Program-made: the position numbers and the translations under genes
DNA from: Bacteroidia bacterium
GTDB taxonomy: Bacteria > Bacteroidota > Bacteroidia > Bacteroidales > GWA2-32-17
Direction: 5' to 3'
DNA: 64,000 bases
Assembly (NCBI GenBank): GCA_016218155.1
Contig: JACREQ010000038.1
Coordinates: forward strand, 1-64,000
Shown: positions 7,470 through 49,320 of the stretch, piece by piece
How positions within the stretch are numbered: the first letter of the stretch is position 1
Layout of the letters: the number at the start of each line of letters is the position of its first letter
The notes under the pieces: generated by a model
Seen by the model: only the letters and a program-made list of their open reading frames with translations
The model's database searches: none
Told to the model about the DNA's origin: nothing

Positions 7470-10400
7470 CTAATCTTTAGCAAATTTGCGAAACTTAAAT
7501 GAGTTACCAGCACTAAGTTTTAAAAGATAAAAACCTGAAGTAAACCCAGTTGTGTTAACAATAGTTTTTTGTATTAAGTTCCCCTGAAAAACAACTTCCC
7601 CGATTGAATTTATAATTTCAAAATTTTGTTTTTCAAAGTTACCGTTATATTCAATTATTAATTCATTGCTAACCGGATTGGGATAAATAAACAATTTATC
7701 TGTTTTTTCTAAATAAACCCCAACTGTTGTTATATAAACACAATAAGATGTATCTGAGCATAATCCCTGAGTAATTATTACCGCATAATTTCCATTTACA
7801 GTGGCTGTGAAATTTTGATTTATTTCACCACTGATGGGTGCATAACCATTATCGCAATCAAGCCATTGATATGAGCTGCCATTCATATTTGCTGTTACTG
7901 TAGGTTCAGAAACAGTAAGTGAAGTATCAATATTTACAACAGATAAATTCAACTCAAATATACTATCGCAGCTATTTGTAGTTAGCAAACTATCATAGTA
8001 ATGTCCGGCAATTGAATATGTTGAATTATGCCAGTTATAAGATTCACCACCACAGATTGAATAGTTTTCGGAAAAAGAATAAACGGGATTAACGGTTAAA
8101 TTTAAAGTATATATACTGTCACATCCATTTATGGTGTTGTGAGAAGAAAAATATGTGCCTGAAGTTGTGTAATTATTGCCATGCCAATTGTAAACAACAC
8201 CATTGCAGATAGAATGATTTTCGTCAAAATTAAAAGCCGGATAAACAGTAAGATTAAGTGTGCTAATGCTATCGCAACCATGAATAGAAATTAAACTGTC
8301 ATAATAAACCCCCGCTATTGAATAATCAATACCATGCCAGTTGTAAGTTTGATTATCACAAATCTGTACGTTGTTAGTTGTGTTGTATAACGGACTTACA
8401 TCAAGCGAAAGAATGTAAATGCTGTCACAATTATTAACAGTTTGCAAACTATCATAATATATACCAGACGTAAAATACGTATTACCATGCCAGTTGTAGT
8501 TTTCGCCATTGCAAATAAATTGAGTTTCTGCAAAAGAATAACTTTGATTAACTGTGAGATTTAATATAAATATACTGTCGCAACCATTAATAGTATTTAG
8601 GCTATCATAATAAGTTCCTGTAATTGTATAAACATTTCCATGCCAATTATAGGTTTCACCATTACATATATCAATGTTATTTATAAATAAATATGTTGGA
8701 GAAACCGTTAGATTTATTACAAATATACTATCACAACCGATAGTATTAAAAATAGTGTCATTAAAAATACCTGATATTGTGTATGAATGTCCATTAAATA
8801 TATAACTATCACCATTGCAAATGGACTGTGGATTATTAATTGTATAAATGTTGGTAACTGTTAAAGTTGCAGAATTTGATGTGTCGGCTCCAAAATTATT
8901 GGATATAAAACATCTGTATTCATAATTACCAGATACAAGAGTGCCGCTTACAATCATTGTGTCGGCAGTTTGATTGTTATATAAAGCACCTGAAGGGTTA
9001 CCATTTACGACATTATTCCAACTACCATTATAAAATTGCCATTGATAAGACAATGGTGCTGTACCTGATGCATTAATACTTAAACTTGTACTACTTTCTT
9101 CACACATTGTCACGTCCAGTGGTTGAGAGATTATTGTAGTTTGTTTATATTTTGCAAAAAAAGCATCAATAGTAATTGCTGTAAGATTTGCTATTCCTGT
9201 GTTAGGATCAAAGTCAGCTGTACCTTGGAAAGATCCTGTTATATATACATTTCCTGAACCATCAAATGTTATGTAGTTGGCCACATCAGAATTTGTGCTA
9301 CCTATGTTTTTTGCCCAAAGATAATTTCCGAAAGCATCGAATTTGGAAAAGAAAATATCATAAGAGCCAGCCGATGACAGATTTGTTATTCCTGCATCAG
9401 GGTCAAAGTCAGCTGTATTTTGAAAAGTACCGGCAACATATATTTTACCTAAACTATCTATAGCAATACTGTTACTATAATCATAATTTGTACCCCCAAA
9501 GATTTTGGCAAAATTATAGTTTCCACTATTATCGTATTTAGCAACAAATATGTCAGTATAGCCATGCGACAATAAGTTTACTATTCCTGTGCCAGGGTCA
9601 AAGTCCGCACCTTCAGACTCTCCAGTAATATATACATTTCCTAAGTGGTCAACATCTATGCTCCTTCCATAATCAAAACCAGTACTTCCGATATCTTTTG
9701 CCCAAAGATAATTTCCGTTAATATCATATTTAGCAAAGAAAATATCATCATAATTATTTGAACCATGTACAGACAGATTTGCAGTACCTGAGCCTGGATC
9801 AAAGTCGGCTATTCCTTGGAACGACCCAGTAATATAAACATTACTTAAGTCATCAATTGCGATACAATAACCTCTATCGTTAGAGGTTGACCCAATACTT
9901 TTAGCCCACAGGTAATTCCCAATATTATCGTATTTGGCAAAGAAAATATCATCATAGGTAGAAACAGTTGTGAGGTTAGCTGTACCTGTACCTGGATTAA
10001 AGTCAACTGTATTTCGGAAACACCCTGTAATATAAACATTTTCTGAGCCATCAACTTTTATGCTGTAACTGTGATTACTAGATGTTGAAACACCTATTTT
10101 TTTTGCCCAGATATAATTCCCGTTATTATCATATTTAGCAAAAAAAAGACCATTAGGACCTGAAAGATTTGCTGTTCCTGTGCCAGGGTCAAAGTCAATG
10201 TCTCCTTGATACTCTCCTGTAATATATACATTTCCTGCGCCATCAACTGCTATACTTCTACTATATTGATCGTTTATATTGCCTATTCTTTTTGCCCAAA
10301 GATAATTCCCATTATTGTCATATTTTGCAAAGAAAATATCATTACCACCTGCAGATATTAAGTTTGCAGTACCTGTGCTAGGGTCAAAATCGGCTGTACC

Positions 10401-10562
10401 ACTAAAATGCCCTGTAATATATACATTGCCCATGCCGTCAACTATTATACAATAACTAATTCCTTTTCCGATTGTATTTGCCCATTGATATTCCTGAGAA
10501 TAACAAGGATTACAAAAACTAACAATAATCAGAAAAAAACTAAAGTGTAATAAACTTTTCAT
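7470..10562 (-). CDS. T9SS type A cargo protein with SBBP repeats and a six-fold CDSI repeat module
   Basis: The 1030-residue protein begins with a signal peptide (MKSLLHFSFFLIIVSFCNPCYSQ). Residues about 25-485 hold seven SBBP-type repeats, each with NVYITGxFxGTADFDPxTGTANL and DIFFAKYDNNGNYLWAKxIG, predicted to form a beta-propeller. An Ig-like domain with SYQWQFYNGSWNNV follows at about 487-575. Six repeats of about 48 residues come next, each with ICNGxxYNWHGxxY, YYDSL and CDSIxxLNLTV. The last part is a type A sorting domain: LFIYPNPVSNELIIEY, then GFYLLKLSAG and a basic KFRKFAKD end. T9SS type A domains direct export and surface attachment in Bacteroidota. The ligand or substrate is unknown. 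It is the last gene before the terminator at 7421-7456 and lies just downstream of the PD40 array. Confidence 0.88.
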   Translation of the reverse strand: MKSLLHFSFFLIIVSFCNPCYSQEYQWANTIGKGISYCIIVDGMGNVYITGHFSGTADFDPSTGTANLISAGGNDIFFAKYDNNGNYLWAKRIGNINDQYSRSIAVDGAGNVYITGEYQGDIDFDPGTGTANLSGPNGLFFAKYDNNGNYIWAKKIGVSTSSNHSYSIKVDGSENVYITGCFRNTVDFNPGTGTANLTTVSTYDDIFFAKYDNIGNYLWAKSIGSTSNDRGYCIAIDDLSNVYITGSFQGIADFDPGSGTANLSVHGSNNYDDIFFAKYDINGNYLWAKDIGSTGFDYGRSIDVDHLGNVYITGESEGADFDPGTGIVNLLSHGYTDIFVAKYDNSGNYNFAKIFGGTNYDYSNSIAIDSLGKIYVAGTFQNTADFDPDAGITNLSSAGSYDIFFSKFDAFGNYLWAKNIGSTNSDVANYITFDGSGNVYITGSFQGTADFDPNTGIANLTAITIDAFFAKYKQTTIISQPLDVTMCEESSTSLSINASGTAPLSYQWQFYNGSWNNVVNGNPSGALYNNQTADTMIVSGTLVSGNYEYRCFISNNFGADTSNSATLTVTNIYTINNPQSICNGDSYIFNGHSYTISGIFNDTIFNTIGCDSIFVINLTVSPTYLFINNIDICNGETYNWHGNVYTITGTYYDSLNTINGCDSIFILNLTVNQSYSFAETQFICNGENYNWHGNTYFTSGIYYDSLQTVNNCDSIYILSLDVSPLYNTTNNVQICDNQTYNWHGIDYSIAGVYYDSLISIHGCDSISTLNLTVYPAFNFDENHSICNGVVYNWHGNNYTTSGTYFSSHNTINGCDSIYTLNLTVNPVYSFSENYSICGGESYNWHNSTYSIAGHYYDSLLTTNSCDSIFELNLSVVNIDTSLTVSEPTVTANMNGSSYQWLDCDNGYAPISGEINQNFTATVNGNYAVIITQGLCSDTSYCVYITTVGVYLEKTDKLFIYPNPVSNELIIEYNGNFEKQNFEIINSIGEVVFQGNLIQKTIVNTTGFTSGFYLLKLSAGNSFKFRKFAKD

Positions 10563-10593: not shown

Positions 10594-12222
10594 CTACCTC
10601 TTCTTCACCACCCCAATAGGATTTAAAATAATAGGTTTATTAATTTCTTTGAACGCTGTTTTTTCGGGTATGCTTATTTTTTCAGGTGAAAAAATATAGT
10701 CGGGTGTTTCGCATGAAAACAAATAATCTTTTCCTTGTTTCAATATAATGACATAGTTGCCCGTTTCTTTATTAGGTTTATAACTTCCGATTAATTTTCC
10801 TGTCTTTGATTCCTTAACATTAATCACAATATTTTTAGGAACTTCTGCATTACCTTCCATTTTTATTGTACCCTTTATTACAGCCGAAGATCTTTCGGGA
10901 AGCGAAAGTAAATTCATTACATAAATATCTCGACCTCCTATTCCATCCTCCCTAACAGATGAAAAATAAGCTCGTTTACCATCAGCCGACATAACAAAAT
11001 ACACATCATCAGATGTTGTATTTACAGGATAACCCATATTTGTAGGTGCTCCCCATGTTCCGTCTGCTTGTAATTCGCTGTAAAATAAATCATATCCTCC
11101 CATACTATTATGTCCCTTAGACGAGAAATAAAGCGTGCTTCCATCAGGGTGTATAAATGGTCCTTCTTCGTCATACTGTGTATTTAAAATATCGCCCATG
11201 TTTTGAGCTAAACCCCATTCACCTGTAGGGTTACGACGAACTATATACAAATCCTTACCACCTTTTCCATTACCTCTATCGCTGGTAAAAATTAGTGTTG
11301 TTCCCTCTGAAGAAATTGTTGCATGACTTTCATTAGCAGAGGTACTAATATTTGAGCCAAGCTTTACAGGCACAGTCCAGTCATTGTTTTCAAATTCGCT
11401 TACATATATATTTCCATCACCATAATCGTCTTTGTAAATATACATTTCCTGTCCATCGGCTGATAAACCAATAGTAGCTTCATGCCCTTTAGTGTTAATT
11501 TTATCACTTATTTTTTCAGGAAAACTCCATTTCCCATCAACTTTTTTTATAATATAAATATCTTCAAAATATTTTCCGTCATCAGTAAGTAAACCGCCGG
11601 TATTTCCTCTTCTGCGGGAGGTAAATACCATAGTTTTTTCATCAGCGGTAATACATGGTGTATGCTCATCAAACTCGGTATTAAAATTAGCTCCTAAATT
11701 TTCAATAGAAATTTCGACAGAATCTTTTATCAGTTTTTGTGCATTCTTACACATTTCAATATACCTGTCGGCAAGTTGAAGTTCTTTAGGATTACTAAAA
11801 ACAAGTTCTTTATATTTTACAAAAAAATTATCTGCTTTATCAAACTGGTAAGCAAAATGATATGCCTGACCAATATGATACATTGTTTTGTACGGGGATT
11901 TTTTTTCTTTAAAATTTAACTCTTTATATTTTGCAGCCATATTGCGTGATGCAACATTAAAATAAGGAATTGATTTTTCCTTTTCGAAGGGACTATTAAG
12001 ATAACACAATCCAACCAGATAATTCAAATTTGCATTAGAGGTATCTGCACGCTGTAACTTTAAAAACAAAGGCAATGCTGCGGAATAGTTTGAAAATAAA
12101 ATAAACCTCTTAGCATCATTAAAATTACTCTTCTTCGCAGACTTTGTTTGTTCTTGTGCACCAACTGCAAAAGCAATAAAAAGAAATGCTGTTGAAAAAA
12201 ATAACTGCTTAAACTGCTTCAT
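10594..12222 (-). CDS. TPR-PD40 exported protein without OmpA domain (542 aa)
   Basis: A signal peptide (to about residue 23, ending AVGAQ) is followed by TPR-like helices (about 35-130; FSNYSAALPLFLKLQRADTS and a later FDKADNFFVKYKEL). Residues about 185-440 hold five or more WD40-like PD40 beta-propeller repeats, such as DEHTPCITADEKTMVFTSRRRG, GHEATIGLSADGQEMYIYKDD and YDEEGPFIHPDGSTLYFSSKG. A carboxypeptidase regulatory-like beta domain closes the protein (about 450-540; GTIKMEGNAEVPKNIVINV). This is the PorE-type architecture of T9SS-associated peptidoglycan-linking proteins but without the OmpA end. It is one of four paralogues in a row and is closest to the 537-residue one. It has its own promoter-like signal at 12239-12269. 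A periplasmic or outer-membrane scaffold is likely; the exact role is unknown. Confidence 0.82.
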   Translation of the reverse strand: MKQFKQLFFSTAFLFIAFAVGAQEQTKSAKKSNFNDAKRFILFSNYSAALPLFLKLQRADTSNANLNYLVGLCYLNSPFEKEKSIPYFNVASRNMAAKYKELNFKEKKSPYKTMYHIGQAYHFAYQFDKADNFFVKYKELVFSNPKELQLADRYIEMCKNAQKLIKDSVEISIENLGANFNTEFDEHTPCITADEKTMVFTSRRRGNTGGLLTDDGKYFEDIYIIKKVDGKWSFPEKISDKINTKGHEATIGLSADGQEMYIYKDDYGDGNIYVSEFENNDWTVPVKLGSNISTSANESHATISSEGTTLIFTSDRGNGKGGKDLYIVRRNPTGEWGLAQNMGDILNTQYDEEGPFIHPDGSTLYFSSKGHNSMGGYDLFYSELQADGTWGAPTNMGYPVNTTSDDVYFVMSADGKRAYFSSVREDGIGGRDIYVMNLLSLPERSSAVIKGTIKMEGNAEVPKNIVINVKESKTGKLIGSYKPNKETGNYVIILKQGKDYLFSCETPDYIFSPEKISIPEKTAFKEINKPIILNPIGVVKKR

Positions 12223-12238
12223 GTTTATTAGTTTTAAA

Positions 12239-12269
12239 CAAAAATACAGTATTGCAAACTCAAAACAAA
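12239..12269 (-). promoter_or_regulatory. Bacteroidota-type promoter for the 542-aa PD40 gene
   Basis: Read on the minus strand, TTTG (12266-12269) and TATTTTTG (12239-12246) are 19 bases apart, matching the -33/-7 consensus. The start codon at 12222 is about 17 bases beyond the -7 box. This suggests the gene can be transcribed apart from the upstream PD40-OmpA gene. Confidence 0.55.
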
Positions 12270-12309
12270 ATAATAATAAAGAATCGGGTTTTTTTACCTA
12301 TAAAAGCAG

Positions 12310-15198
12310 TTATTTGTATTTCTCTGTATTAACAATAAAAGCATTACCATAACCGGCTTTCTGAATTTTCTTAATTTCCTTTCTTGCCTCATCCACAGTT
12401 GTATATTTACCGTACAGATATTTATACTTTCCATCGTTACCAATTATTTCGCGTACACCTTTAAGATTTTCATAACGACTTAAATTTACGGGTTCAGATA
12501 ATGATTCTAGCTGAATTGTAAACTCACCCTTTTGCTCAACCTTTTTATTAAAGTTTTCGAGTTTTACAAGAAATGCTCCCGGAAAACCAAGTTCTATCAT
12601 TCTTTGTTTTTCTTTTTGAGCAGCTGCCAGACCTTCTATTTCACCATAAGTATATCTATAAAATCCATCAAGGCAGAGGTTTTCTTTAACACCCTTAACA
12701 TTCTTAAATAAAGCCATTTCAGCAGGTTTTGTTAGTGCACTTAGCTGAATAGTATATAAGGTTTCATCATTAACAACTGATAAAGCTGAATCTGATTGGT
12801 TAAGGTTATATGAAATATTTATTTCATTCTTAATCTTTCCTATTGCTGATTGGTTTTCGATAGTTGCCTCGGGGAAATTCTCATCTATAACAATGTTCAA
12901 AAGCTTCATCGCATCTGATTTGTTAGCAAAATCACCAACAGTGTACATCACCATATCATCAACCTTTGTTTCATTTATTGGCGATCCTGTTGTTTTTGAG
13001 AACATCTCTGTTTTAGATAGAGTGCCAACAAGTGTCAACATTTTATTTGTTATATCGAAAGTAATGGTATTACCTTTTTGTTTAAGTAAAAGTATGGTAT
13101 ATCGTTCTGAAGAATGTTGTTGTCTTCCTTCACGCGAAAATCTTAATGTTTCTGGAACTTTAATATCTTCAACTACAATATTCTCTGCTGTTGAATTTAG
13201 AAGTTTCATTTCTACACGACGGTTAAGCTGACGACCTTCGGGGTTATCGCTTCCGTCTGCATTCTGATTAATTGCTATAAAATGTGATTTACCCATCCCT
13301 TTTGAAACAAAGCGACTCTGATCAATACCTTGAGCCACTAAGTAATCAATTGATGCTTTTGATCTGTTCTCTGAAAGTTTCTGATTAAATTTATCGCTAC
13401 CAAGAGCATCGGTATGTCCAACAATTTCGATATAAAGTGAAGGATTTTTTCTCATTAAATCAGCAAGACGCTGTAAATCTTCCTGTGATTCTCTTCTTAA
13501 ATCAAACTTGCCATAGTCAAAGAAAATACTTCTGATTACGTAGTATTCACCTTTGGTAACTTCAATTGGAACCATTTCTACGTTAATAACAACTTCAGAT
13601 CTGGTATAAACCTCAGGTATATACAAATTCTCATAATGAGTTTTATACCCATTACACTTATATTCTATTTTAAAGTTTCCTGATTTTATTTGTGTTAAAT
13701 AATTACTTAACAAATAATTTGGTTTACATTTTATTAGTGTATCACCTTTTATGCTATCAATTAATGAAATTATAAAGTCATGGGGCAATTCATTTTTCTG
13801 ATCCTGAAGTGTTATATCTCCTTTTAGAATAATCTCGGTTTCGTGCCCATCAGGAATACTAACAGCAATCTTAAAAATATCATTTGAGCCAATACCTCTT
13901 TCGTTATTATTTAGAGGGAAAAAAGCATATTCTCCATTTGCTTTAGGCAGATAAAACAAATCGTTACCTACTGTATTAATTGGATATCCAATGTTTAATG
14001 GCGACGACCAAGTATTATTGTCTAACAACGTAGTGTGAAAAACATCAAAACCTCCCATGCTGTAATGTCCCTGCGAACTAAAATAAAGAGTTTTACTATC
14101 ATTCAAAATAAACGGAGTTTCTTCATCGTATTTTGTATTAATTGTTGGACCAAGATTTACAGCTGGTCCCCATTCTCCCTGCTCATCTTTTACCGAACGG
14201 TAAATATCAAGGCCGCCGAAGCCACCAGGTCTGTCGCTTGTAAAATAAAGAGTTTTTCCATCTATTGTAAGGGTTGCATGAGATTCCCACTGTTTTGTGT
14301 TAATGTTCTTGTTTAGTAATTTCATGTCGGACCACTTATTATTCTTATAATAGCTAACACAAATATTACCGTTGTCATTATCATCGCGAACTAAATAAAG
14401 CTCTGTTCCATCTGCGCTTATAGTAACAGGAACAGTTCTGGAAGTTGCGCCAATTTGCTTTGTTACATTTACAGGATCAGTCCATTTACCCTCAGCTTTT
14501 TTGGAGAAATAAATATTATCCATCTGATAATCATAATTGATAACATTAATATCTATTTCTGCTGAAAAAACATTTTTATCACCGGCTGTAAAAATAAGTA
14601 CAGTTTCATCATCAGAAATAACCGGACAATTTTCAACTTTTGATTCGGAATTTATTACTTCTCCAAGATTTTCTGTGATTAATTTTAGTGGCAACTTAAC
14701 CAGCTCTTTTGCGTTTTGTGTACATTGAATTTCACGGTCGATATAGTCAATATAAAAAAGATCTTTTGTATTTAATATTTCGCGATACTTTTTATAATTT
14801 TCTACTGCTTTATCAAACTCTAAAAGGTTTCTATACGCATTTCCTAAATAAAATAATGCATCTTTTGGTGCACCTTTTTCTAAATAAGAACCCTCTTTAT
14901 ATTTAGGATTTATATTTGTAATCGCCTTTTGAAGATATTCAAGTGCTTTTCTGTTTTCGGCAGGATCGGGAACATGTAATAAACAAATACCAATTCGGTA
15001 ATTTATATTTGCATTGTCGGGTTCTAATTTTATTAACTCAAGGTAAATTGGCAATGCTTCACTAAATTCTTCGTAAAGGAAATAATATTCCGCATTTATA
15101 AACTTCTTTTTAAAATCCTGGGCAGTTGCAGCATTTGCTAACACAAAAAAAATACTTATGCAAACAACTGTTTTTATTATTGCTATAAATTTCATCAT
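12310..15198 (-). CDS. TPR-PD40-OmpA protein with three C-terminal SPOR-like units (962 aa)
   Basis: After a signal peptide (to about residue 27, ATAQ) come TPR helices (about 30-150) and PD40 repeats (about 190-430; WESHATLTIDGKTLYFTSDRPGG, YDEETPFILNDSKTLYFSSQGH). A carboxypeptidase regulatory-like domain follows, then an OmpA-like peptidoglycan-binding domain at about 549-668 (IFFDYGKFDLRRES, VGHTDALGSDKFNQKLSENRSKASIDYL, NRRVEMKLL). The last 290 residues hold three SPOR-like units near 698-785, 813-882 and 892-957, with YTIQLSAL and FTIQLESL strands and FPGAFLV / YGNAFIV ends. OmpA and SPOR domains both bind peptidoglycan, so this protein probably tethers an outer-membrane complex to the wall, as PorE does for the T9SS. 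Two tandem ATGs exist; the first is used here. Confidence 0.88.
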   Translation of the reverse strand: MMKFIAIIKTVVCISIFFVLANAATAQDFKKKFINAEYYFLYEEFSEALPIYLELIKLEPDNANINYRIGICLLHVPDPAENRKALEYLQKAITNINPKYKEGSYLEKGAPKDALFYLGNAYRNLLEFDKAVENYKKYREILNTKDLFYIDYIDREIQCTQNAKELVKLPLKLITENLGEVINSESKVENCPVISDDETVLIFTAGDKNVFSAEIDINVINYDYQMDNIYFSKKAEGKWTDPVNVTKQIGATSRTVPVTISADGTELYLVRDDNDNGNICVSYYKNNKWSDMKLLNKNINTKQWESHATLTIDGKTLYFTSDRPGGFGGLDIYRSVKDEQGEWGPAVNLGPTINTKYDEETPFILNDSKTLYFSSQGHYSMGGFDVFHTTLLDNNTWSSPLNIGYPINTVGNDLFYLPKANGEYAFFPLNNNERGIGSNDIFKIAVSIPDGHETEIILKGDITLQDQKNELPHDFIISLIDSIKGDTLIKCKPNYLLSNYLTQIKSGNFKIEYKCNGYKTHYENLYIPEVYTRSEVVINVEMVPIEVTKGEYYVIRSIFFDYGKFDLRRESQEDLQRLADLMRKNPSLYIEIVGHTDALGSDKFNQKLSENRSKASIDYLVAQGIDQSRFVSKGMGKSHFIAINQNADGSDNPEGRQLNRRVEMKLLNSTAENIVVEDIKVPETLRFSREGRQQHSSERYTILLLKQKGNTITFDITNKMLTLVGTLSKTEMFSKTTGSPINETKVDDMVMYTVGDFANKSDAMKLLNIVIDENFPEATIENQSAIGKIKNEINISYNLNQSDSALSVVNDETLYTIQLSALTKPAEMALFKNVKGVKENLCLDGFYRYTYGEIEGLAAAQKEKQRMIELGFPGAFLVKLENFNKKVEQKGEFTIQLESLSEPVNLSRYENLKGVREIIGNDGKYKYLYGKYTTVDEARKEIKKIQKAGYGNAFIVNTEKYK

Positions 15199-15281
15199 TT
15201 TCCTTTGAACTTTTTTCTAAAATGGCTTATACGTTGTTTTTGGTTAATGGTTTAATAATATGAGCCGAAAATAGAAAATAT

Positions 15282-15818
15282 TTATTGTTTATTATTAATT
15301 AATTGAAAAAAACCTGCCTGTTCCCATTTGTTTGAATTTAAAATCCAATCGTTAATAATTCCACATTTCTCAAATTTACTTTTTAAAAACAAGTCTATAC
15401 TTGCCTTATTATTTATTGAAATAAAGCAATATAGTTGATGTAAATTTAATATTGAAAAACTATAGTTCACTAAAATTTCCAGAGCAGTACATGCAACACC
15501 CTTTTGTCGGTAATTATGATTTCCGATTAAAATTCCAATACCTGCTTTCCTGTTTATAGCGTCATAATCAAACAGATCTACCATTCCAACAGTTATCTCT
15601 TCTGAACCATCAATAACATCAATCATCAGTCTGAGTTGTTTTGCAGTTTGTATATCAGCATTTGCAAAAGAACAGTACTCTTTTAATGTGTATTTTGAAA
15701 ATGGCGAAATTGTTTGACTTACCCGCCAAACCTCTATCTCGTTTTCCCAAAGATACAGACTTTCCAGATCTGAAGGTTCTACCGCACGAAGCTTAACATT
15801 TTCTTTTTCAAGAGTCAT
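15282..15818 (-). CDS. GNAT-family N-acetyltransferase (RimJ/RimL-like)
   Basis: The 178-residue protein starts MTLEKENVKLRAVEPSDLESLYLWENE, the usual first strand and helix of RimL-type GNAT enzymes. It contains the acetyl-CoA-binding region AGIGILIGNHNYRQKGVACTALEILVNYSF, a variant of the R/Q-x-x-G-x-G/A motif with RQKGVA, and HQLYCFISINNKASIDLF near the C terminus. GNAT enzymes transfer acetyl from acetyl-CoA to amines; the acceptor here is unknown (protein N-terminus, amino sugar or small amine). It begins 3 bases after the stop of the 537-residue PD40 gene, so it is surely read from the same transcript. Its place inside an envelope gene array is unusual but may only reflect a convenient promoter. 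Confidence 0.85.
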   Translation of the reverse strand: MTLEKENVKLRAVEPSDLESLYLWENEIEVWRVSQTISPFSKYTLKEYCSFANADIQTAKQLRLMIDVIDGSEEITVGMVDLFDYDAINRKAGIGILIGNHNYRQKGVACTALEILVNYSFSILNLHQLYCFISINNKASIDLFLKSKFEKCGIINDWILNSNKWEQAGFFQLINNKQ

Positions 15819-15821
15819 ATC

Positions 15822-17435
15822 TTATTCTACCTCAACTATCGGATCTAACACAATTGGTTTCTGTAAATAATAGAATGAAGAATTATCTGGTATACTTAAA
15901 GGTTCTGTTGGAAAAGTTAACCCGCAACCATTACAGGATAAAGTATATTGCTTTGACTTTGGCAACACAATAGTGTATTTGCCTGATTGTCTGTTTGGTT
16001 TAAATTCTCCGATAAGAGTTCCAGTCTTAAAATCATTTATTTTTAAAATAACATCCTTAACGACTTCTCCGGTTTTTTTGTTTTTAATAAAACCATTAAC
16101 CACTACTAATGCACGCTCTGGCAATGAAAGTAAATCCATTAAATAAATATCTTTTCCGCCTACTCCTTCTTTCTGAACTGTTGAATAATATGCTCTTTTG
16201 CCATCAGCCGATAAAACATAAAAAACATCATCATCAATTGAGTTAATAGGATATCCCATATTTTCTGGTCGCGAAAATGCTCCATCATCTTTCAAAATTG
16301 TAAAAAACAAATCATAACCTCCCATACTATTGTGACCTTTAGAGCTAAAATACAAAGTACTTCCATCTGGATGAATAAATGGTCCACTTTCATCTTTTTC
16401 TGTATTAATAATACTTCCTGCATTTTTTGCTAAACTCCAATCTCCGTTTGGCAAACGATATGAAATATACAGATCATAACCACCTAAACCACCGGGTCGG
16501 TTACTTGAAAAGTATAATGTTGAACCATCTGAAGATATTGAGGCATGGCTTTCATCATAACTGGAATTTACATTAGAACTGAGTTTTTCTGGCTTAGCCC
16601 ATTCTGTTCCATTAAAATGACTTAAATACAAATTACCATCTCCAACATCATCTTTATAAATAATCAAATCATTTCCATCAGCAGAAAGGGCAACAGAAGC
16701 CTCGTGTTCCATTGTATTTATGTTTTCACTGATTTTTTGAGGAGCCCCCCATTGTGAATTTTCTTTACGTGAAATATAAATATCTTCGAAATATTGTTTA
16801 TCACTGGTTTTAAAATTACCTGTACTTCCCTTTCTTTTGGAAGTAAAAATCATTACAGTTTCATCAATATTAAATACCGGACTGTGATCATCAAGTTCTG
16901 AATTAATAACAGCACCCATATTTATAAGACTGATCTTAACCGGATTCTTTATTAATTCCTTAGCGTTATTAGATAAAGAAATCATTTTTTCAGCATCTTT
17001 ACTTTTCTGTACATCAGTTTTTACAAATTCTTTATATTTCTCGAGTGAGGTTAATGCATTATCAAACATACTATTCTTATATTGAGCCAAGGCTAATATC
17101 CACAATGCCTCAGGTGAAGCTTTGTTTTCTTTTGCGTTTGATTCCTGATACTCCGGATTTATTTCTGTTGCTTTTAAAAGATAAGGAATACATTGACTTT
17201 TAGTAGCATCGGTTTTAAAATAACACGAACCAAGTAAATAGTTAACATTTGAATTTGTGGAATCATTTTTAAAATACAAAAGTAAATCTTCAATAGCTAA
17301 TTGGGTTTCGCCCAGCTGCATATGCTTTTGTGCATTAATAAATGTTTGCTTGGCATTAAATTTTTGAGCAAATGCCGGCATTTGTAACATTATAACTGCC
17401 ACAAAAAGCGATAGAAAAACCAGTTTCTTAGTCAT
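15822..17435 (-). CDS. TPR-PD40 exported protein without OmpA domain (537 aa)
   Basis: The start chosen is ATG at 17435, giving MTKKLVFLSLFVAVIMLQMPAFAQ, a clean signal peptide. A longer frame reaching 17492 overlaps the previous gene and hides the signal. TPR-like helices follow (about 28-130; FINAQKHMQLGETQLAIEDLLLYF), then five or more PD40 repeats (about 180-430; DDHSPVFNIDETVMIFTSKRKG, YDESHASISSDGSTLYFSSNRPGG, DESGPFIHPDGSTLYFSSKG). A carboxypeptidase regulatory-like domain ends the protein (NGFIKNKKTGEVVKDVILKI). It closely parallels the 542-residue protein and also lacks OmpA. It lies 19 bases after the 795-residue PD40-OmpA gene and 3 bases before the GNAT gene. Likely an envelope scaffold or a subunit paired with an OmpA-bearing paralogue (inference). 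Confidence 0.83.
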   Translation of the reverse strand: MTKKLVFLSLFVAVIMLQMPAFAQKFNAKQTFINAQKHMQLGETQLAIEDLLLYFKNDSTNSNVNYLLGSCYFKTDATKSQCIPYLLKATEINPEYQESNAKENKASPEALWILALAQYKNSMFDNALTSLEKYKEFVKTDVQKSKDAEKMISLSNNAKELIKNPVKISLINMGAVINSELDDHSPVFNIDETVMIFTSKRKGSTGNFKTSDKQYFEDIYISRKENSQWGAPQKISENINTMEHEASVALSADGNDLIIYKDDVGDGNLYLSHFNGTEWAKPEKLSSNVNSSYDESHASISSDGSTLYFSSNRPGGLGGYDLYISYRLPNGDWSLAKNAGSIINTEKDESGPFIHPDGSTLYFSSKGHNSMGGYDLFFTILKDDGAFSRPENMGYPINSIDDDVFYVLSADGKRAYYSTVQKEGVGGKDIYLMDLLSLPERALVVVNGFIKNKKTGEVVKDVILKINDFKTGTLIGEFKPNRQSGKYTIVLPKSKQYTLSCNGCGLTFPTEPLSIPDNSSFYYLQKPIVLDPIVEVE

Positions 17436-17454
17436 AAAGTTTAATTCTGAAATA

Positions 17455-19842
17455 TTATTTGTTATTAATTTTATATTGTTCCGGTACCTCAACAGGCTTA
17501 AATGTTATTGGTGTTTTGCCTTCTTTTAAAAGTTTAAATTCTACTCTTCTGTTTAATTTTCTCGATTCAATATTTAAATTTTTGGCTACTGGATTTTTTT
17601 CACCAGCACCCTTAACAGTTATCTGTTCCTTTTTAGAGCCTTTATCAATCAAATAATTTTTCACAAAATTTGCTCTTCTTAAACTTAGAGTTTTATTATA
17701 CTTGTAACTCCCTTTATTATCGGTATTACCGGTAATTTCAATTATTGCATCAGGATTTAACACAAGCCACTGAGATAAATTATTTAAATTTTCGATAAAT
17801 GACTTTGTTGAATATTTATCGAATTTAAAAAAGATACATTCAATAATTAAACCATTTTCACTATTAATTTTATTTATTACGTCAGTATTGGTATTTGTCT
17901 GTACCTGATTTTGGGTTGTGTTTTTTTCATCAGAAACAATATATAATAATATCGCTTCTTTATTTCCTGAAGGTTTCTTAAGTGTTTTAATCTGACCTTG
18001 AGGAACCTTTAGATCTAATAAATTCTCAGTAATGATTTCTGCTCTAATGTTATTTAGGTCAACATTTGAATTATTTGAAGGAAGAATAATTTCAGCATTA
18101 TATTTTTCGGCAAACAATAATATTTTAGCTATTGTTATAAAATTATTGGATTCTTTATCATTTAACACGGTTCCCGAAGGGTCAAAATGAAAGTAATATT
18201 CCTTTGTTAGTTTGCCAAGTAAAATCGGATCTAATTTAATTGCTCTTTGAATTTGCTGATAAGATGTACCGTCTTTTACCATTAAGTCGTCGCTAAAAGG
18301 CAAAAAGCCTTCAGCATCAACTGTAACAGTATAATTTTTACCAGGTTTTAAAATAAACAAATACTTTCCTGTTTTTGAGTTGGGTGTATATGTACCAACA
18401 ACTTCTTTTGTATCCTTATCAGTAACTGTAATTGAAACGCTATTAAGCTGGGTTCCGTCGGCCATTGTTATAACACCAGACATAACAGTAAGTGATTTCT
18501 CTTCGCTTTCAGGGAGAGTTATCAAATAAATATCATTTCGTCCAACACCTCCTGCTTGCTGAGATGCATAATAACCTCTTTTCCCATCAGGAGTTGGAGT
18601 ATAAAAAATGTCATCAGCAGTAGTATTTATAGGATATCCAAGGTTAGTTGGTTCTGCCCACACACCTTCTTCGTCTTTACTAGTAAAGAAAATATCAAAA
18701 CCACCCATATTCATGTGACTTTTACTACTAAAGAATAAAGTTACTCCGTCAGGATGAATAAAAGGACCTATTTCATCTTCTGAAGAATTTACTATTGTTC
18801 CAAGATTCTGTGCAGGTGCCCAATCTCCATTTGGTAATTTATTTGAACAATAAATATCCATGCCGCCATATCCACCTGGCCTATCACTTGTAAAAAACAA
18901 CTGAGAACCATCAGCAGAAAGTGATGCATGGTTTTCGTTATCTTTTGTGTTAATTGTTGGTCCTAATTTTATTGGAGTTGACCAAACTTCACCATCCAAT
19001 TTACTATAATAAATATTACCGTCTTTTTCATTTACAACATTTGATTCATCTTTGTAAATAAACAACTCCTGACCATCAACAGAAAGACCAATTGTAGCCT
19101 CGTGGCCTGTGGTATTTATATTTGAACTTATTGAAACAGGACTATTCCACGCTCCATCTTCTTTTTTATGAGAAATATAAATGTCCTCGAAGTACTGCCC
19201 ATCTTCAGTAGTTTTTTCGCCTGTACTACCTGTTCTTTTAGAGGTAAAAATTAAGGTGGATTCATCAGCGGAAAAAACAGGGCTATGTTCATCGAACTCT
19301 GAATTAATTGCATTTCCCAAATTGGTAACAAACATTTTAACTGGATACTTAATTAGGCTAATACCATAATTACAGTTTTCATAAAGATTATCTATGTTCT
19401 CAACAAATTCTGCTTTATAATCCGGAATCATAATTTTTAATGTGTCGAGTAATTTTATGGCTTTTTCAAATTTATAATCTAAATGATATGCTTTTGCTAA
19501 ATAAAGATATGATTCTATAGGAGCAGATGTTTCATAATAAAATTCGGGTTGTGCTTTTAAATTAATATTTTTAATTGCTTTCTCGAGATATGGAATTGAT
19601 TTTGATTTTTCGAGTACAGTATTCATGTAACAAAATCCAGCTTTAAAATTAAGGTTTGCATTTTCCGGATCCATCTGTAATAATTCTTTATATACAATAA
19701 GTGCTGCTGTGAAGTCTCCCTTTTCCAGCAAATTTTCTGCATTTGTAAAGTTCTTTTCAAAAAGATCTTTATCAATTTTCTGAGAAAATGAATTTAAGGC
19801 TAAAAACCCAATAAAAACAAATACTACAAATACCTGCTTCAT
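17455..19842 (-). CDS. TPR-PD40-OmpA PorE-like protein (795 aa) with an extra degenerate OmpA-like segment
   Basis: A signal peptide (to about 21, LNSFSQ) is followed by TPR helices (about 25-150; FTNAENLLEKGDFTAALIVYKELLQM). PD40 repeats occupy about 190-430 (DEHSPVFSADESTLIFTSKRTG, NENHASLSADGSQLFFTSDRPGG, EDEIGPFIHPDGVTLFFSSK), and a carboxypeptidase regulatory-like domain lies at about 450-540. Residues about 553-650 (YYFHFDPSGTVLNDKESNN and onward) look like a worn OmpA-like fold. A well-kept OmpA domain lies at about 663-772 (IFFKFDKYSTKS, ITGNTDNKGSYKYNKTLSLRRANFVKNYL, KLNRRVEFKLL). This is the PorE architecture that links the T9SS to peptidoglycan in other Bacteroidota. It is first in the array, with a -7-like box at 19886-19893. 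Confidence 0.88.
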   Translation of the reverse strand: MKQVFVVFVFIGFLALNSFSQKIDKDLFEKNFTNAENLLEKGDFTAALIVYKELLQMDPENANLNFKAGFCYMNTVLEKSKSIPYLEKAIKNINLKAQPEFYYETSAPIESYLYLAKAYHLDYKFEKAIKLLDTLKIMIPDYKAEFVENIDNLYENCNYGISLIKYPVKMFVTNLGNAINSEFDEHSPVFSADESTLIFTSKRTGSTGEKTTEDGQYFEDIYISHKKEDGAWNSPVSISSNINTTGHEATIGLSVDGQELFIYKDESNVVNEKDGNIYYSKLDGEVWSTPIKLGPTINTKDNENHASLSADGSQLFFTSDRPGGYGGMDIYCSNKLPNGDWAPAQNLGTIVNSSEDEIGPFIHPDGVTLFFSSKSHMNMGGFDIFFTSKDEEGVWAEPTNLGYPINTTADDIFYTPTPDGKRGYYASQQAGGVGRNDIYLITLPESEEKSLTVMSGVITMADGTQLNSVSITVTDKDTKEVVGTYTPNSKTGKYLFILKPGKNYTVTVDAEGFLPFSDDLMVKDGTSYQQIQRAIKLDPILLGKLTKEYYFHFDPSGTVLNDKESNNFITIAKILLFAEKYNAEIILPSNNSNVDLNNIRAEIITENLLDLKVPQGQIKTLKKPSGNKEAILLYIVSDEKNTTQNQVQTNTNTDVINKINSENGLIIECIFFKFDKYSTKSFIENLNNLSQWLVLNPDAIIEITGNTDNKGSYKYNKTLSLRRANFVKNYLIDKGSKKEQITVKGAGEKNPVAKNLNIESRKLNRRVEFKLLKEGKTPITFKPVEVPEQYKINNK

Positions 19843-19948: not shown

Positions 19949-21250
19949 TTAAAATTTCCTTAAAATGTCGAAATTTTCAAGGTATTCTGCAGTTCTTTTT
20001 AAAAATGCTCCGGCTAATGCTCCGTCAACAATTCTATGATCAAAAGTTACCGAGAGCATTGTTATTTGTCTTATAGCAATCGCATCACCAGCAGGAGTTT
20101 CAATTACGGCTGGTTTTTTATTAATTGTACCAATAGCAAGAATCGCAGCCTCGGGTTGGTTGATAATTGGTGTTCCGGTATATGTCCCGAACGAACCAAG
20201 ATTAGTTATTGTAAAAGTTCCACCCTTTATTTCATCCGGCAAAAGTTTGTTTTGACGGGCTCTGTTTGCTAAATCGTTTACTGACTTTGAGAGTCCTATT
20301 AAATTTTTTTGGTCGGCATTGTGAATTACAGGCACAATTAAATTCCACGAAGGAAGTGCTGTTGCAATTCCAATATTGATATTCTTTTTTATCAGAATTT
20401 TTGTACCATCAACAGAAACATTTATTAAAGGAAAATCTTTAATTGCCATTGCTGTAGCTTCTATAAACACCGGCATAAACGTTAGTTTTTCACCATGTTT
20501 ATTCTGAAATTCTTCTTTCAGTTTGTTTCTCCATTCCACAATTCTTGTAACATCAGCTTCAATAAAAGAAGTAACATGTGGTGAGGTATGAACAGAACGA
20601 ACCATATGTTCAGCAATTATTTTTCTCATTCTGTCCATTTCAACTACCTCAACTTCACCGGTCGAAATTGCAACTTCTGATTTAATTGGTTCTTCTATTA
20701 ATTGTGGTTTAACATCGTTAACAACTACAACTTTTTGAATTTGGCTTTTAATATTTATAAAATTTTCAATATCTGTTTTTGTTATTCTTCCCTCAAGACC
20801 TGAACCCTTTAAGTTTTTTATATCATTTTCGGTAATCAGATGTTCTTTCATTATCTGACGAACAAGCGGGCTTAAAAAAGCTTTGCCAGATGTTTTTACT
20901 ATTTCATTTTCTGTAATTTGGTTTTCCTGTTTAAAATCTGGAGTTGCAACTGTAGAAATTTCGTTAACTTCAGTTAAAATTACTTGCTTATTTAAATTCT
21001 CGCCAGCAACATTAGTTTTTAAAATTAAAATTGGAGTACCAATTTGAACTACATCTCCTTCGTTAAACAATAGCTTTTGTACAACTCCCTGCTTTGGCGA
21101 TGGAATTTCAGAATCAACCTTATCAGTTGCAACTTCAACTATTGGCGTATCCTCATTAACAGAATCACCTTCCCTAACAAGCCATTTAGTTATCGTTGCA
21201 TCGGTAAAGCCCTCACCCATTGAAGGTAAAAGCATTTCGAAATCAGCCAT
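19949..21250 (-). CDS. 2-oxo acid dehydrogenase E2 (dihydrolipoyl acyltransferase)
   Basis: The 433-residue protein has an N-terminal lipoyl domain (residues 1-75) with the lipoylation lysine near 44 in VATDKVDSEIPSP. A peripheral subunit-binding domain follows at about 128-168 (LSPLVRQIMKEHLITENDIKNLKGSGLEGRITKTDI), then the catalytic acyltransferase domain from about 200 to the end. The catalytic HRIVDG motif is at about 405-410 with the expected His and Asp. E2 carries acyl groups from E1 to CoA in pyruvate, branched-chain or oxoglutarate dehydrogenase complexes. A single lipoyl domain and the general motif pattern fit a branched-chain or pyruvate type, but the substrate cannot be fixed. 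No E1 or E3 gene is adjacent, so this is an isolated subunit gene. It is divergent from the following lipoprotein gene. Confidence 0.93.
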   Translation of the reverse strand: MADFEMLLPSMGEGFTDATITKWLVREGDSVNEDTPIVEVATDKVDSEIPSPKQGVVQKLLFNEGDVVQIGTPILILKTNVAGENLNKQVILTEVNEISTVATPDFKQENQITENEIVKTSGKAFLSPLVRQIMKEHLITENDIKNLKGSGLEGRITKTDIENFINIKSQIQKVVVVNDVKPQLIEEPIKSEVAISTGEVEVVEMDRMRKIIAEHMVRSVHTSPHVTSFIEADVTRIVEWRNKLKEEFQNKHGEKLTFMPVFIEATAMAIKDFPLINVSVDGTKILIKKNINIGIATALPSWNLIVPVIHNADQKNLIGLSKSVNDLANRARQNKLLPDEIKGGTFTITNLGSFGTYTGTPIINQPEAAILAIGTINKKPAVIETPAGDAIAIRQITMLSVTFDHRIVDGALAGAFLKRTAEYLENFDILRKF

Positions 21251-25088: not shown

Positions 25089-25409
25089 CTAGCAGCCTTC
25101 GCCGTATGTAACTTCTTTTACTTTTATGTCTTCGCCGTACTCAACGATTTTTACTTTAAATTTTTCGCCATACTCAACAGCTTTCCAGCAACCTACTTTA
25201 TCTTCGCCATAATCTACGTATTTAATTTTAAGATCTTCGCCATAGTCTACAAATTTTACTTTGTAATCTTCGCCATAGTCTACAAATTTAATTTTTCCAT
25301 AAACATGACAGCCTTTGCTTTGAGTATCTTTTACAGTATCAAAAGACATTAAGCTTAACAGAAGTACAGATGCTACTCCAAATAAAATGAATGTTGATTT
25401 AAATTTCAT
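25089..25409 (-). CDS. Small exported protein built of YGE repeats
   Basis: The ATG at 25409 gives MKFKSTFILFGVASVLLLSLMSF, a signal peptide or N-terminal anchor. The remaining residues, about 80, are almost wholly repeats of about 11 residues: KIKFVDYGED, YKVKFVDYGED, LKIKYVDYGED, then AVEYGE, VKIVEYGED and VKEVTYGEGC. Alternating basic and hydrophobic residues before each turn-like DYGED suggest a regular beta structure, such as a short solenoid or hairpin stack. Cysteines lie at the start (GCHVYG), in the middle (VGCWKAVEYGE) and at the C terminus (GEGC), so disulphides are possible after export. The repeats are visible in the DNA as about 33-base units. I know no function for it. It stands alone, convergent with rnc. 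Confidence 0.8.
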   Translation of the reverse strand: MKFKSTFILFGVASVLLLSLMSFDTVKDTQSKGCHVYGKIKFVDYGEDYKVKFVDYGEDLKIKYVDYGEDKVGCWKAVEYGEKFKVKIVEYGEDIKVKEVTYGEGC

Positions 25410-25486
25410 ATGCAATTTAATTTAGTGATTAATAATTTTTAAGTAAAAATATAACTATTTACGAAACAAACTTAAAAAAGTTTAAA

Positions 25487-36876: not shown

Positions 36877-39800
36877 CTAAATCCATTTAACCAAAGGGAA
36901 GTCCATTCGATGAGGCAAATCGTGATTTTTAGGGAATACCCTGAAAGAGTAGTCATAAACACCTGAACGGGTTGCCGGAACAACACATTTAAATGTAACG
37001 ACTCCACCATGTTCTGCAATTGGTTTCATTTCTTCAATAAAATGTATTTCTTTCACCTCGTCAAATACTTTTTGTCCAAAAACAATTTCAATCCCTATAT
37101 CAGAAGTTGGTATTTCGTGGAGGTTTAATACTATTTCTGCAACAAAGTCTTCACCAAGTAATAATGGTTTTTGTGTAGAATCGTGACAATCGACTGAAAC
37201 AATTTCAACACTTTCCCATCCTCTAATCATTTTTTGTTTCCAGGCAGCAATCTTTCTAACCATTTCGAAATTGTTCTCAAAAAGCAAGCTTCTTCTTTCT
37301 AACAATTTGTTATAATATTTTGAATAATAGTCGTCAAGCTGACGTTTCATTGTAAAGCGTGGAACTATATCAGCAATTGTTTTCTTAATGTGAGCAATCC
37401 ACTTTGTAGGCAAACCAGATTTATCATTATTGTAGAATGTTGGAACAATCTCATTTTCGAAAAGGAAGTATAATGTTTCTGCATCCAGTTCATCCTGAAA
37501 ATTTTGATTGTCATATGTACGTTCTTCTTTAAGAGCCCAGCCTGCACCTTTAACATATCCTTCTGCCCACCATCCATCTAACACACTGCAATTAACTACT
37601 CCGTTCATTACTGCTTTTTCTCCACTTGTTCCGGAAGCCTCTAGTGGTCGGGTTGGAGTGTTTAACCAAACATCAACACCTTGCACTAATTTTTTTGCAA
37701 GCTCAATATCATAGTTGTCAAGGAAAAGGATTTTACCTACAAACTCTGGTAAACGTGATATTTCTACTATTTTTTTAATTAAATCCTGTCCGGCTTTATC
37801 TGCAGGGTGTGCTTTTCCTGCAAAAATAAATTGTACTGGCTTTTCCTTATTATTTACTAATTCTGCTAATCGTTTTAAATTACTAAAAATTAAATGAGCT
37901 CTTTTATAAGTTGCAAAACGACGTGCAAAGCCTATTGTTAATGCGTTTTCGTTAAGTCTTTCAACAGTTTCTAAAACTAATGTAGGATTTTCCTGGCGAT
38001 TTTCAAGTCCTTCCATTAATTTTTTGCGAATTGTTACAAATAATTCCTGACGCAATTGTGATCTTACTTCCCAGATTTTTTCATCGGGAACTTTATTTAT
38101 TGCCGACCACGAATTTTTATTTGACTGATCGTTAATAAATTCTTTTGGTAAATATTCGTTATATAATCCCCACCATGGTTTTGCAACCCAGGTTGGAAAA
38201 TGAACTCCATTTGTTACATAACCTACATGTAATTCCTGCGGAAAATAATCACTCCACAAAGGATTAAACATAGTACGTGAAACTTTTCCATGTATTTTAC
38301 TTACACCATTTACTTCCTGAGAAAATTTACATGCAAGAACCGACATCGAAAATGTTTCCTTTATATCATCTTCGCGAACACGACCCAGTCCCATTAATGT
38401 TTCCCAACTAATATTTAGTTTATCTGTAAAATATGAAAGATAAGTTCTTATCATGTCTTCGCGGAAGGCATCGTGCCCTGCAGGAACCGGTGTATGGGTT
38501 GTAAATAATGAAGAAGCGCGAACAACCTCTAATGCTTCATAAAAATTCATGCGTCTTAATTCAACACATTTCCTTAACCTTTCTAAACCAATAAAAGCTG
38601 CATGACCTTCATTACAATGATATATTTCAGGTTTTATACCAATAGCATCAAGCATTTTAATACCACCAATACCTAACAGAATTTCTTGTTTAAGGCGATG
38701 TTCCAAATCTCCACCATAAAGTTGATAGGTAATTGATTTGTCGGCATCAGAGTTTTCTTCAATATCTGCATCAAGTAAGTACAATGGAACTCTTCCCACA
38801 TCAACTCTCCAAACTTTTGCATGTAACAAACGACCCGGCATTGGTAAATTAATAATTACCCATTCTCCTTTTTCATTTCTAACAGGGTGCAAAGGAAGTG
38901 CAGTAAATCTTTGTGGAACATAATTTGCAATTTGTTCGCCGGAAACTGAAAGAGATTGTGCAAAATATCCATATCGATATAACAAACCGATTCCAACAAT
39001 ATTAGCTCCTGAGTCGCTTGCTTGCTTTAGATAATCCCCTGCCAATATTCCCAATCCTCCTGAATATATTTTTAAAGTATCGTGCAAACCAAACTCCATA
39101 CTAAAATATCCAATTTGCTTATCATTGGTAGTATGTTTGGATTTCATATATTCATCAAAAGCAGAATTTACTCTGTTTAATTTTTCGAGAAACATTTGAT
39201 CTTTTTCCAGTTCTCTGTATTTTTCAAGTGTAATTGACTCAAGCAATACAATTGGATTGTGTCCTACCTCTTCCCATAATTGACTATCAATCATTTCGAA
39301 CAGCTCGTGAGCATCGTAATTCCACGACCACCAAAGATTTTTAGAAAGTTTTTGTAAATTAAAAAGACTTTCAGGAATAAATGATTTAATAAAAACTTTT
39401 TTCCATGCAGGTTTTACTGTATCAATATTTTTAAGTGATTTTAACCCTTCTGGTAATTGTTTGTGTTTATAATCCTCTATTCTTAATTCGGCTTTTGTAA
39501 GAGCAACATGATATGCTTCATGATAATAAGCTATAAGATTTTTCCATAAAACAGTTTGAGAAATTTCATATGCGATTTGTCTGGCCGATGCAATTTCACT
39601 TTCTGATTTAGAATCATATTCCAAAATAAATTTTGCAATTTTATGAAATACCTCATCCTGATTAAAATCATCACGTTCAATAACTTTGATGCCATCACCT
39701 CTTTCGTCTCCCTGTTGTTTTATCCATAGTCCAAATCCAGCTAATGTTGTTGTAACTGTTGGAATATGAAATGCAACACTTTCTAACGGAGTATATCCCC

Positions 39801-45823: not shown

Positions 45824-45912
45824 AATTATAATTTTAAGCAGTATGTTAATAAGACAAATTATTTTTGATTTGGTTGCCCGATAAATTAATTTTATTAAAA
45901 CTGTTGGTATAC

Positions 45913-45940
45913 TGTAGTCAGGTCTTTCGACCTGACTACA
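45913..45940. repeat. GTCAGGTC hairpin, copy 2
   Basis: A perfect 12-bp stem (TGTAGTCAGGTC at 45913-45924, loop TTTC, GACCTGACTACA at 45929-45940) lies 8 bases beyond the stop of the 1098-aa T9SS gene. It may act in termination, but the shared core with the hairpin at 42439 suggests a mobile or dispersed palindrome. The G+C content is above that of the surroundings. Confidence 0.65.
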
Positions 45941-45948
45941 ACAATAAG

Positions 45949-49245: not shown

Positions 49246-49315
49246 AATTAGTTTATTTAGTTGTTCTGCTATTTAAGACAAAATAGGGGTAAGTTTCGTT
49301 GCCTGTGACAGCTTA
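48210..49315. repeat. Tandem duplication, copy A: N-terminal coding part plus leader
   Basis: The coding sequence for residues 1 to about 345 of the 1098-aa protein and about 70 bases upstream align closely with 49710-50815. Long identical runs include the leader containing AAGACAAAATAGGGGTAA. A second shared block lies at 45949-46180 and 49321-49552 (sorting domain). Boundaries are approximate. Confidence 0.8.
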
Positions 49316-49320
49316 TTATT

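Follow-up and report, generated by a model that had tools for sequence, protein, structure and literature searches.

A gene cluster encoding PorE-like TPR-propeller proteins with and without wall-binding tails in a Bacteroidales genome, and its possible role in outer membrane tethering

Introduction

What would a bacterium do with four related envelope proteins encoded side by side, two of which end in domains of a wall-binding type while the other two stop short of them? The question is raised by the first 64,000 nucleotides (the window, positions 1 to 64,000 of the forward strand) of contig JACREQ010000038.1 from a Bacteroidia bacterium (Bacteroidales; GWA2-32-17; GenBank assembly GCA_016218155.1). 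The array lies at 10594-19842 and encodes proteins of 542, 962, 537 and 795 amino acids (aa), here called P1, P2, P3 and P4; P1 and P3 are referred to as short and P2 and P4 as long. A preliminary description had presented them as four paralogues in a row, of the layout known from PorE, a protein tied to the type IX secretion system (T9SS). We tentatively favor a different answer, to which we give a little under an even chance as a whole: that the four proteins are soluble periplasmic scaffolds between outer membrane and peptidoglycan, CpoB-TolB-Pal-like members of the PorE-like superfamily that serve division-linked tethering and not anchoring of the T9SS core, and that the array has been derived from an old operon, conserved in part, of an E2 gene, genes for several TPR-propeller proteins and a GNAT gene.

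The PorE-like family itself is already known and has many members, with 14 PorE homologues in Tannerella forsythia and more than 20 in Flavobacterium johnsoniae according to PMC7192894. A literature search on PD40 proteins with OmpA and SPOR domains or with the T9SS, covering for the most part papers outside subscription, found no description of a member carrying both OmpA and SPOR, of tail-less members as constant components of a cluster, or of a locus joining E2, PD40 and GNAT genes. For the tethering and constriction of the outer membrane in Bacteroidetes, PorE-like proteins have been proposed, without a targeting signal.

Results and Discussion

Domain anatomy of the four proteins

The paralogy of P1-P4 was borne out by mutual identities of 36-47% across their common region. 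Within the domain set attributed to all four, PD40 was confirmed throughout by Pfam (E 2.8e-31 to 2.5e-14), TPR matches were weak, and CarboxypepD_reg passed its cut-off in P4 only. OmpA was detected in P2 (E 8.4e-19) and P4 (E 2.1e-21), and the two short proteins stop before it, as had been described. All four N-termini resemble Sec-type signal peptides; a basic motif search that we devised found no lipobox in the first 30 residues of any of the 27 PD40 proteins encoded in this genome. P3 extends 4 residues past the common region, and P1 and P3 belong to a set of six among these 27 proteins that end no more than 6 residues beyond it. P3 was taken as the 537-aa product of an ATG start, in place of the 556-aa mechanical open reading frame (ORF) from TTG, because three orthologues are 537 aa long.

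The long members hold domains that the initial description had overlooked. Built from a 36-row alignment, the AlphaFold2 (AF2) model of P4 (mean pLDDT 85.5) begins with helices, followed by a propeller, a beta sandwich and two alpha-beta units (547-637 and 665-773). A degenerate OmpA-like domain lies at about 541-640 (residues 538-660 matched the OmpA profile with an hhalign probability of 94.5) and is followed by an intact OmpA at about 665-773. In all 11 P4-type sequences, the first unit lacks the TD motif but keeps the arginine, and the D/N/R set is complete in the second; in two other families (f89 and f65) between two and four OmpA-like stretches were detected in P4-type proteins by profile. 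For P2, the model (25 rows, mean pLDDT 78.4) shows OmpA at about 553-667 and three SPOR-like folds at about 700-782, 814-879 and 893-957, the arrangement of the domains being uncertain given a pTM of 0.52. Pfam SPOR (PF05036) recognized residues 891-956 at 36.6 bits (E 5.9e-9), above the gathering cut-off of 21 bits, and the other two modules were found by our own profile and by their modeled fold but not by Pfam. A sequence search of the PDB with the P2 SPOR tail returned no match. Three SPOR modules and the OmpA D/N/R residues were present in all nine P2 orthologues of the family.

The residues corresponding to those that hold the meso-DAP stem in PorE are D597/N605/R612 in P2 and D708/N716/R723 in P4, with spacings of 8 and 7 identical to those of PorE. 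Judged by eye at the presumed motif position, the SPOR glutamine was absent from module 1 (0 of 12 rows) and present in module 2 (12 of 12) and module 3 (10 of 10). According to PMC6895207, this glutamine (Q270 of RlpA) contacts denuded glycan; for P2 such binding is predicted from it. P2 and P4 are probably able to grip the cell wall and P1 and P3 are not. The presence of two kinds of wall-binding module in P2 suggests a wall or division role and not a simple copy of PorE.

In a Foldseek search of the PDB, TolB (2w8b) and the C-terminal domain of PorE (6top) came first for the P2 model, with Pal and PorE OmpA close behind. GH43/62-type propellers are five-bladed. We considered and set aside the propeller as an enzyme: P4 best matched S9 peptidases by Foldseek and GH43/62-type propellers in a second structural look (Z 19.9), yet Pfam Glyco_hydro_43 remained under its cut-off.

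Relationships of the four proteins and exchange of tails

Trees were built from chosen sets of 103, 85 and 42 rows, and the loci collected were the best 80 by similarity to P1. Four unrelated acquisitions, which would have counted against the preliminary interpretation, were not what the trees gave: P1-P4 fell within one array-type clade with support of 99 in the 103-row, 89 in the 85-row and 100/100 in the 42-row tree. Within the last of these, P1 and P3 are sisters (100/100), P2 joins OmpA+SPOR proteins of two other lineages (100/100), and P4 joins an 801-aa protein of GWF2_33_38 (91/76). By the phylogeny, then, the short members are sisters and the long members are older, separate lineages. 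Block duplication of a long-short pair was rejected, as forcing the P2 and P4 of the family together cost 152 log units (p-AU 9e-51). An exclusive clade of P1-P4 was also rejected (p 1.8e-95), partly since GWF2_33_38 holds both P4-like and P2-like genes. A single origin of the short proteins in the 42-row set (P1, P3 and three Marinilabiliaceae-type rows) was not rejected (p 0.0975).

The segments beyond the common region are variable. By our own profiles, the tails of 180 PD40 proteins comprised OmpA (92), none (39), SPOR (20), OmpA+SPOR (14, one weak), degenerate OmpA (8) and other types (7); the SPOR-only class is partly provisional because Pfam passed only some of those tested (6 of 9 in one test, 0 of 4 in another). 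Parsimony on the 103-row tree required at least eight changes between short and tailed forms and at least five changes of SPOR. This anatomy suggests heads for protein contact and tails for wall contact, with tails often exchanged. Elsewhere in the same genome, two tandem tail-less PD40 genes (L145:5533-8695) group with tail-less array members from other lineages (loci L065, L071, L080 and L109).

Gene order and its conservation

The genes of the locus are listed in Table 1. The array is not strictly continuous, as a GNAT gene separates P3 from P2; the positions and lengths first described otherwise stand. In transcription order the locus reads E2, OmpA (P4), short (P3), GNAT, OmpA+SPOR (P2) and short (P1), with gaps of 106, 19, 3, 83 and 87 bases by coordinates, and these short distances make a single transcript from E2 to P1 likely.

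Table 1. Genes of the array and its flanks (window coordinates).
Gene	Position	Strand	Features
E2, 2-oxoacid dehydrogenase acyltransferase	19949..21250	-	Pfam 2-oxoacid_dh 2.8e-80, Biotin_lipoyl, E3_binding; first gene of the conserved neighborhood
P4, 795 aa	17455..19842	-	Signal peptide, TPR, PD40 propeller, CRD, degenerate OmpA-like domain, intact OmpA
P3, 537 aa	15822..17435	-	Signal peptide, TPR, PD40 propeller, CRD region by alignment; short
GNAT acetyltransferase, 178 aa	15282..15818	-	Pfam Acetyltransf_3 2.6e-16; 3 bases after P3
P2, 962 aa	12310..15198	-	Signal peptide, TPR, PD40 propeller, CRD-like beta domain, OmpA, three SPOR-like folds
P1, 542 aa	10594..12222	-	Signal peptide, TPR, PD40 propeller, CRD region by alignment; short; sister of P3
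T9SS type A cargo with SBBP propeller repeats	7470..10562	-	Pfam SBBP 2e-30, Por_Secre_tail 1.2e-10; 31 bases after P1; non-conserved neighbor

Conservation was followed through the genus (five genomes, G000-G004, where G000 is the genome of the window, with 113 contigs and 27 PD40 genes by our own profile) and the family (10 genomes). The order E2-P4-P3-GNAT-P2-P1 is unbroken in G000, G003 and G004. G001 has P4 to P1 on a contig that stops shortly after P4, and in G002, which is 74% complete, P4 was not found and the rest is split between two short contigs, one with P3-GNAT-P2 and one with P1. The GNAT gene lies between P3 and P2 in all five. At E 1e-90 and by tree position, P1 was found in nine, P3 in seven, P2 in nine and P4 in nine of the family genomes. 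G009 carries E2-P4 on one contig and P3-GNAT-P2-P1 on another. In a second genus (g2) the set is split, with P4-P3 together in G005, E2-P2 in G005, G007 and G008, and P1 apart in G005, G006 and G008.

Among 295 genomes drawn from the order, a search with P2 gave 22 matches in 10 families at E 1e-130, 21 of them OmpA+SPOR proteins. The clusters around these 21 contained GNAT in 14 cases, E2 in 10 and a tail-less PD40 gene in 10, six of the clusters lying at contig ends. Genes of P4, P2 and short type occur together in families f1, f89 and f65; one f89 genome has the order E2, P4-type, P2-type, short, GNAT, and the other is identical without E2, at a contig end. P4- and P2-type genes accompany GNAT in f119. 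Two f134 genomes, two f151 genomes and one of three f80 genomes share the order E2, tail-less (427-460 aa), long, OmpA+SPOR, GNAT, and loci from Marinilabiliaceae and relatives (L098, L101, L084) show the succession short, SPOR-tailed, GNAT. Two loci hold unusual members: a free-standing 183-aa SPOR-like protein inside an array (L067:12371-12922; Pfam SPOR 14.3 bits, own profile 64), and a PD40 member of an E2-GNAT cluster (L078:9908-11929) whose C-terminus is a tryptophan-rich hydrophobic helix with no wall-binding module.

These patterns bear on whether the genes are adjacent for a reason. Plain tandem paralogy, in which a fast-duplicating envelope family is kept adjacent by descent without a joint function, would fit the 27 PD40 genes of this genome and its further tandem arrays, the frequent tail changes on the 103-row tree and the dispersal in genus g2. 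We nevertheless consider it improbable, given that clusters uniting the P4-, P2- and short-type lineages are seen again in f1, f89 and f65, that P4- and P2-type genes stay with GNAT in f119 and P2-type genes with E2 and GNAT in f80, f134 and f151, and that the stem-binding residues are intact in the family P2 proteins and the P4-type sequences.

The preliminary description went further and proposed that short and long members may form hetero-oligomers, so that a single scaffold would exist in a wall-anchored and a free version, possibly serving different secretion or motility complexes; it asked whether short/long pairs co-evolve. The co-occurrence of the three types in f1, f89 and f65 favors such pairing, and tail-less siblings in 10 of the 21 P2-type clusters support co-evolution in part. 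Across 30 tandem arrays, short and tailed members were mixed in 12, against a mean of 15.0 in shuffles. By hand count, 10 of 13 arrays with a strong adjacent E2 or GNAT match were mixed compared with 2 of 17 others; counting the weaker E2 match of L100 as well, the figures are 10 of 14 and 2 of 16. This split was chosen after seeing the data and among related rows, and is a hint only. In one of the 10 family genomes, G007, both long members are present but the short orthologues are missing, P1 is separated in three others as noted, and the conserved neighborhood contains no recognized secretion or motility gene. We rate hetero-oligomers for such complexes as rather unlikely.

In the loci fetched around PD40 genes, a biased set of which five come from this genus, all 12 GNAT genes lay within 92 bases of a PD40 gene. 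Among 395 genomes from the phylum searched for GNAT, 49 others (L204-L252) placed it within 300 bases of dapF in 43 cases and of YceG/mltG in 41, the dapF and mltG identities being Pfam-checked in two loci; in L233-L236, genomes of the order, the gene ahead of GNAT presumably is recR or one of its neighbors. None of the 49 has an adjoining PD40 gene, and GNAT as a dedicated PD40 partner was rejected. As 14 of the 21 P2-type clusters hold it, GNAT is a frequent inherited neighbor in this order and not an obligate partner. Its position beside dapF and mltG elsewhere is a weak pointer to wall metabolism.

A possible tethering role

If the four proteins act as division-linked tethers, their TPR-propeller heads would bind a partner that is likely to sit in the outer membrane, by analogy with the binding of PorE to PorP. 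P4 would then tether this partner to ordinary peptidoglycan, and P2 would tether it to that and also to the amidase-processed (septal) kind. As free heads, P1 and P3 would join the same partners or compete for them, such that the ratio of short to long proteins could set the wall-bound share of the partner. The outcome would be an outer membrane tethered to the wall, most likely in connection with division. A 2025 proposal (PMC12204202) describes PorE as a CpoB-TolB-Pal fusion that tethers the outer membrane to the wall and may move to the septum; a septal move of a PorE-like tether would need SPOR modules such as those of P2. In favor of the tethering role we count the PorE-like D/N/R spacing, the SPOR modules kept among P2 orthologues, the Foldseek matches of P2 to TolB and PorE, the absence from this genome of genes over the TolB and Pal cut-offs, the envelope damage after deletion of CHU_0125, the position of GNAT near dapF and mltG elsewhere, and the lack of a PorP gene within 50 kb on the contig. 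A conserved TolB-/Pal-like and septal-type SPOR protein, in an operon with wall-free siblings, makes the PorE-tether proposal testable.

Several observations weigh against the tethering role. The propellers do not point to TolB uniquely: in a second structural look TolB, Pal and GH62 propellers were tied for P2 (Z 16.8-17.5), and the P4 model is closer to propellers of S9 peptidases and glycosidases than to TolB both in this look and by Foldseek. Mixing of short and tailed genes is not commoner than chance, and G007 keeps P2 and P4 without short orthologues. The lack of PD40 genes beside GNAT in the other phylum genomes counts likewise, and since E2 is a metabolic gene, the conserved order may be mere inheritance. 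In addition, the mutant of CHU_0125, a TPR-PD40-OmpA protein, showed normal spreading and no division defect by electron microscopy (PMC5891637).

A more ambitious form of the tethering role is that the operon is this lineage's counterpart of Tol-Pal in constriction, packed into PorE-like chains, with P2 both marking and holding the dividing wall, P4 holding the rest, and P1 and P3 acting as free TolB-like propellers that, by binding the OmpA domains of their long siblings, detach these from the wall. We consider this quite doubtful; if true, the septal-trafficking proposal for PorE-like proteins would gain a visible targeting module.

Relation to PorE and the T9SS

PorE binds both the barrel PorP and peptidoglycan (PMC9143113, PMC7192894). 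P4 and P2 reproduce its layout in one chain, TPR-propeller-CRD-OmpA, as had been described, with P1 and P3 ending after the CRD region. A further explanation for the array is that its members provide additional PorE-like anchoring for the T9SS or surface cargo, the OmpA proteins fastening an outer membrane barrel together with its cargo to the wall in the manner of the published PorE-PorP-type B complex. Membership of the same superfamily (PorE model E 6.4e-73 for P2 and 2.3e-82 for P4) and the type A cargo gene directly downstream of P1 speak for it, as does the proposal that PorE homologues hold type B cargo in F. johnsoniae (PMC12618676, PMC9143113). With the PorE model (NF052230, cut-off 600 bits), P1-P4 scored far lower, at 197, 246, 175 and 277 bits. 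The comparison with genuine PorE called for at the outset gave two genes above the cut-off, C69:132319 and C29:50614, both outside the array. None of the 19 PorP/SprF genes of the genome lies within 50 kb of the array on the contig, the nearest being at 51 kb and the P1 side being visible for 10.6 kb, where the contig starts; a PorP gene is found within 100 bases of 7 of the 27 PD40 genes, all of these outside the array. We rejected a link to the SBBP cargo gene, as no orthologue of it adjoins the array in G001, G003 or G004. The tie to the T9SS thus found no support at this locus, and we regard the T9SS anchor as unlikely.

The genome has 44 matches to type B T9SS tails, 35 of them over the cut-off. 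Two OmpA-less PorE-like proteins of 553 aa (L146:5258-6919, the same as G000 C42:8257-9918) and 522 aa (L197:6056-7624) adjoin a PorP gene, in L197 by eye, and each locus also has a long gene whose match to the type B tail is weak and under the cut-off; the place of the two proteins is that of the PorE homologue in the published PorE-PorP-type B triads. Within the window, three adjacent ORFs at 42473-50745 carry type A T9SS sorting tails.

Other features of the window

Three further ORFs stand apart from the array: a 108-aa ORF of VDYGEDxKVK-like repeats after a possible signal peptide (25089-25415), a 1414-aa protein fusing glycogen synthase to a phosphorylase-type region (36877-41121), and a 1627-aa UvrA-like protein with two stretches each of ABC_tran and the UvrA DNA-binding domain (50933-55816).

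Comparison with known systems

PorE of Porphyromonas gingivalis, compared through its NCBI model, shares with P4 and P2 the order of domains and the spacing of the stem-binding D/N/R residues. It differs in that P1-P4 fall under its cut-off and have no lipobox or nearby PorP that we could see, that P1 and P3 are without OmpA, and that P2 has added SPOR modules and P4 an added degenerate OmpA-like domain. The CHU_0125 family of Cytophaga hutchinsonii (NF053607, cut-off 620 bits), also compared through the NCBI model, has the order TPR-PD40-OmpA and is a better model than PorE for P2 and P3 (P1 189, P2 273, P3 208 and P4 269 bits; no gene of the genome passes). The array genes differ from it in forming a tandem operon with extra or missing modules. 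Deletion of CHU_0125 damaged outer membrane integrity and raised vesicle numbers sixfold, as reported in PMC5891637.

A survey cited in PMC12204202 did not find pal genes in Bacteroidetes, and no gene of this genome passed the TolB (TIGR02800, 343.15 bits) or Pal (TIGR02802, 125.35 bits) cut-off, the best scores being 60.1 and 91.9. P1 and P3 scored 21.6 and 21 bits with the TolB model, and P4 and P2 70.5 and 52.2 bits with the Pal model. The array thus differs from the Escherichia coli Tol-Pal system, compared for TolB and Pal, in scoring under these cut-offs and in fusing its domains in one chain, but the kinds of domain that it combines (TPR, propeller, OmpA and SPOR) are those of Tol-Pal-CpoB and of the SPOR proteins FtsN, DamX and DedD.

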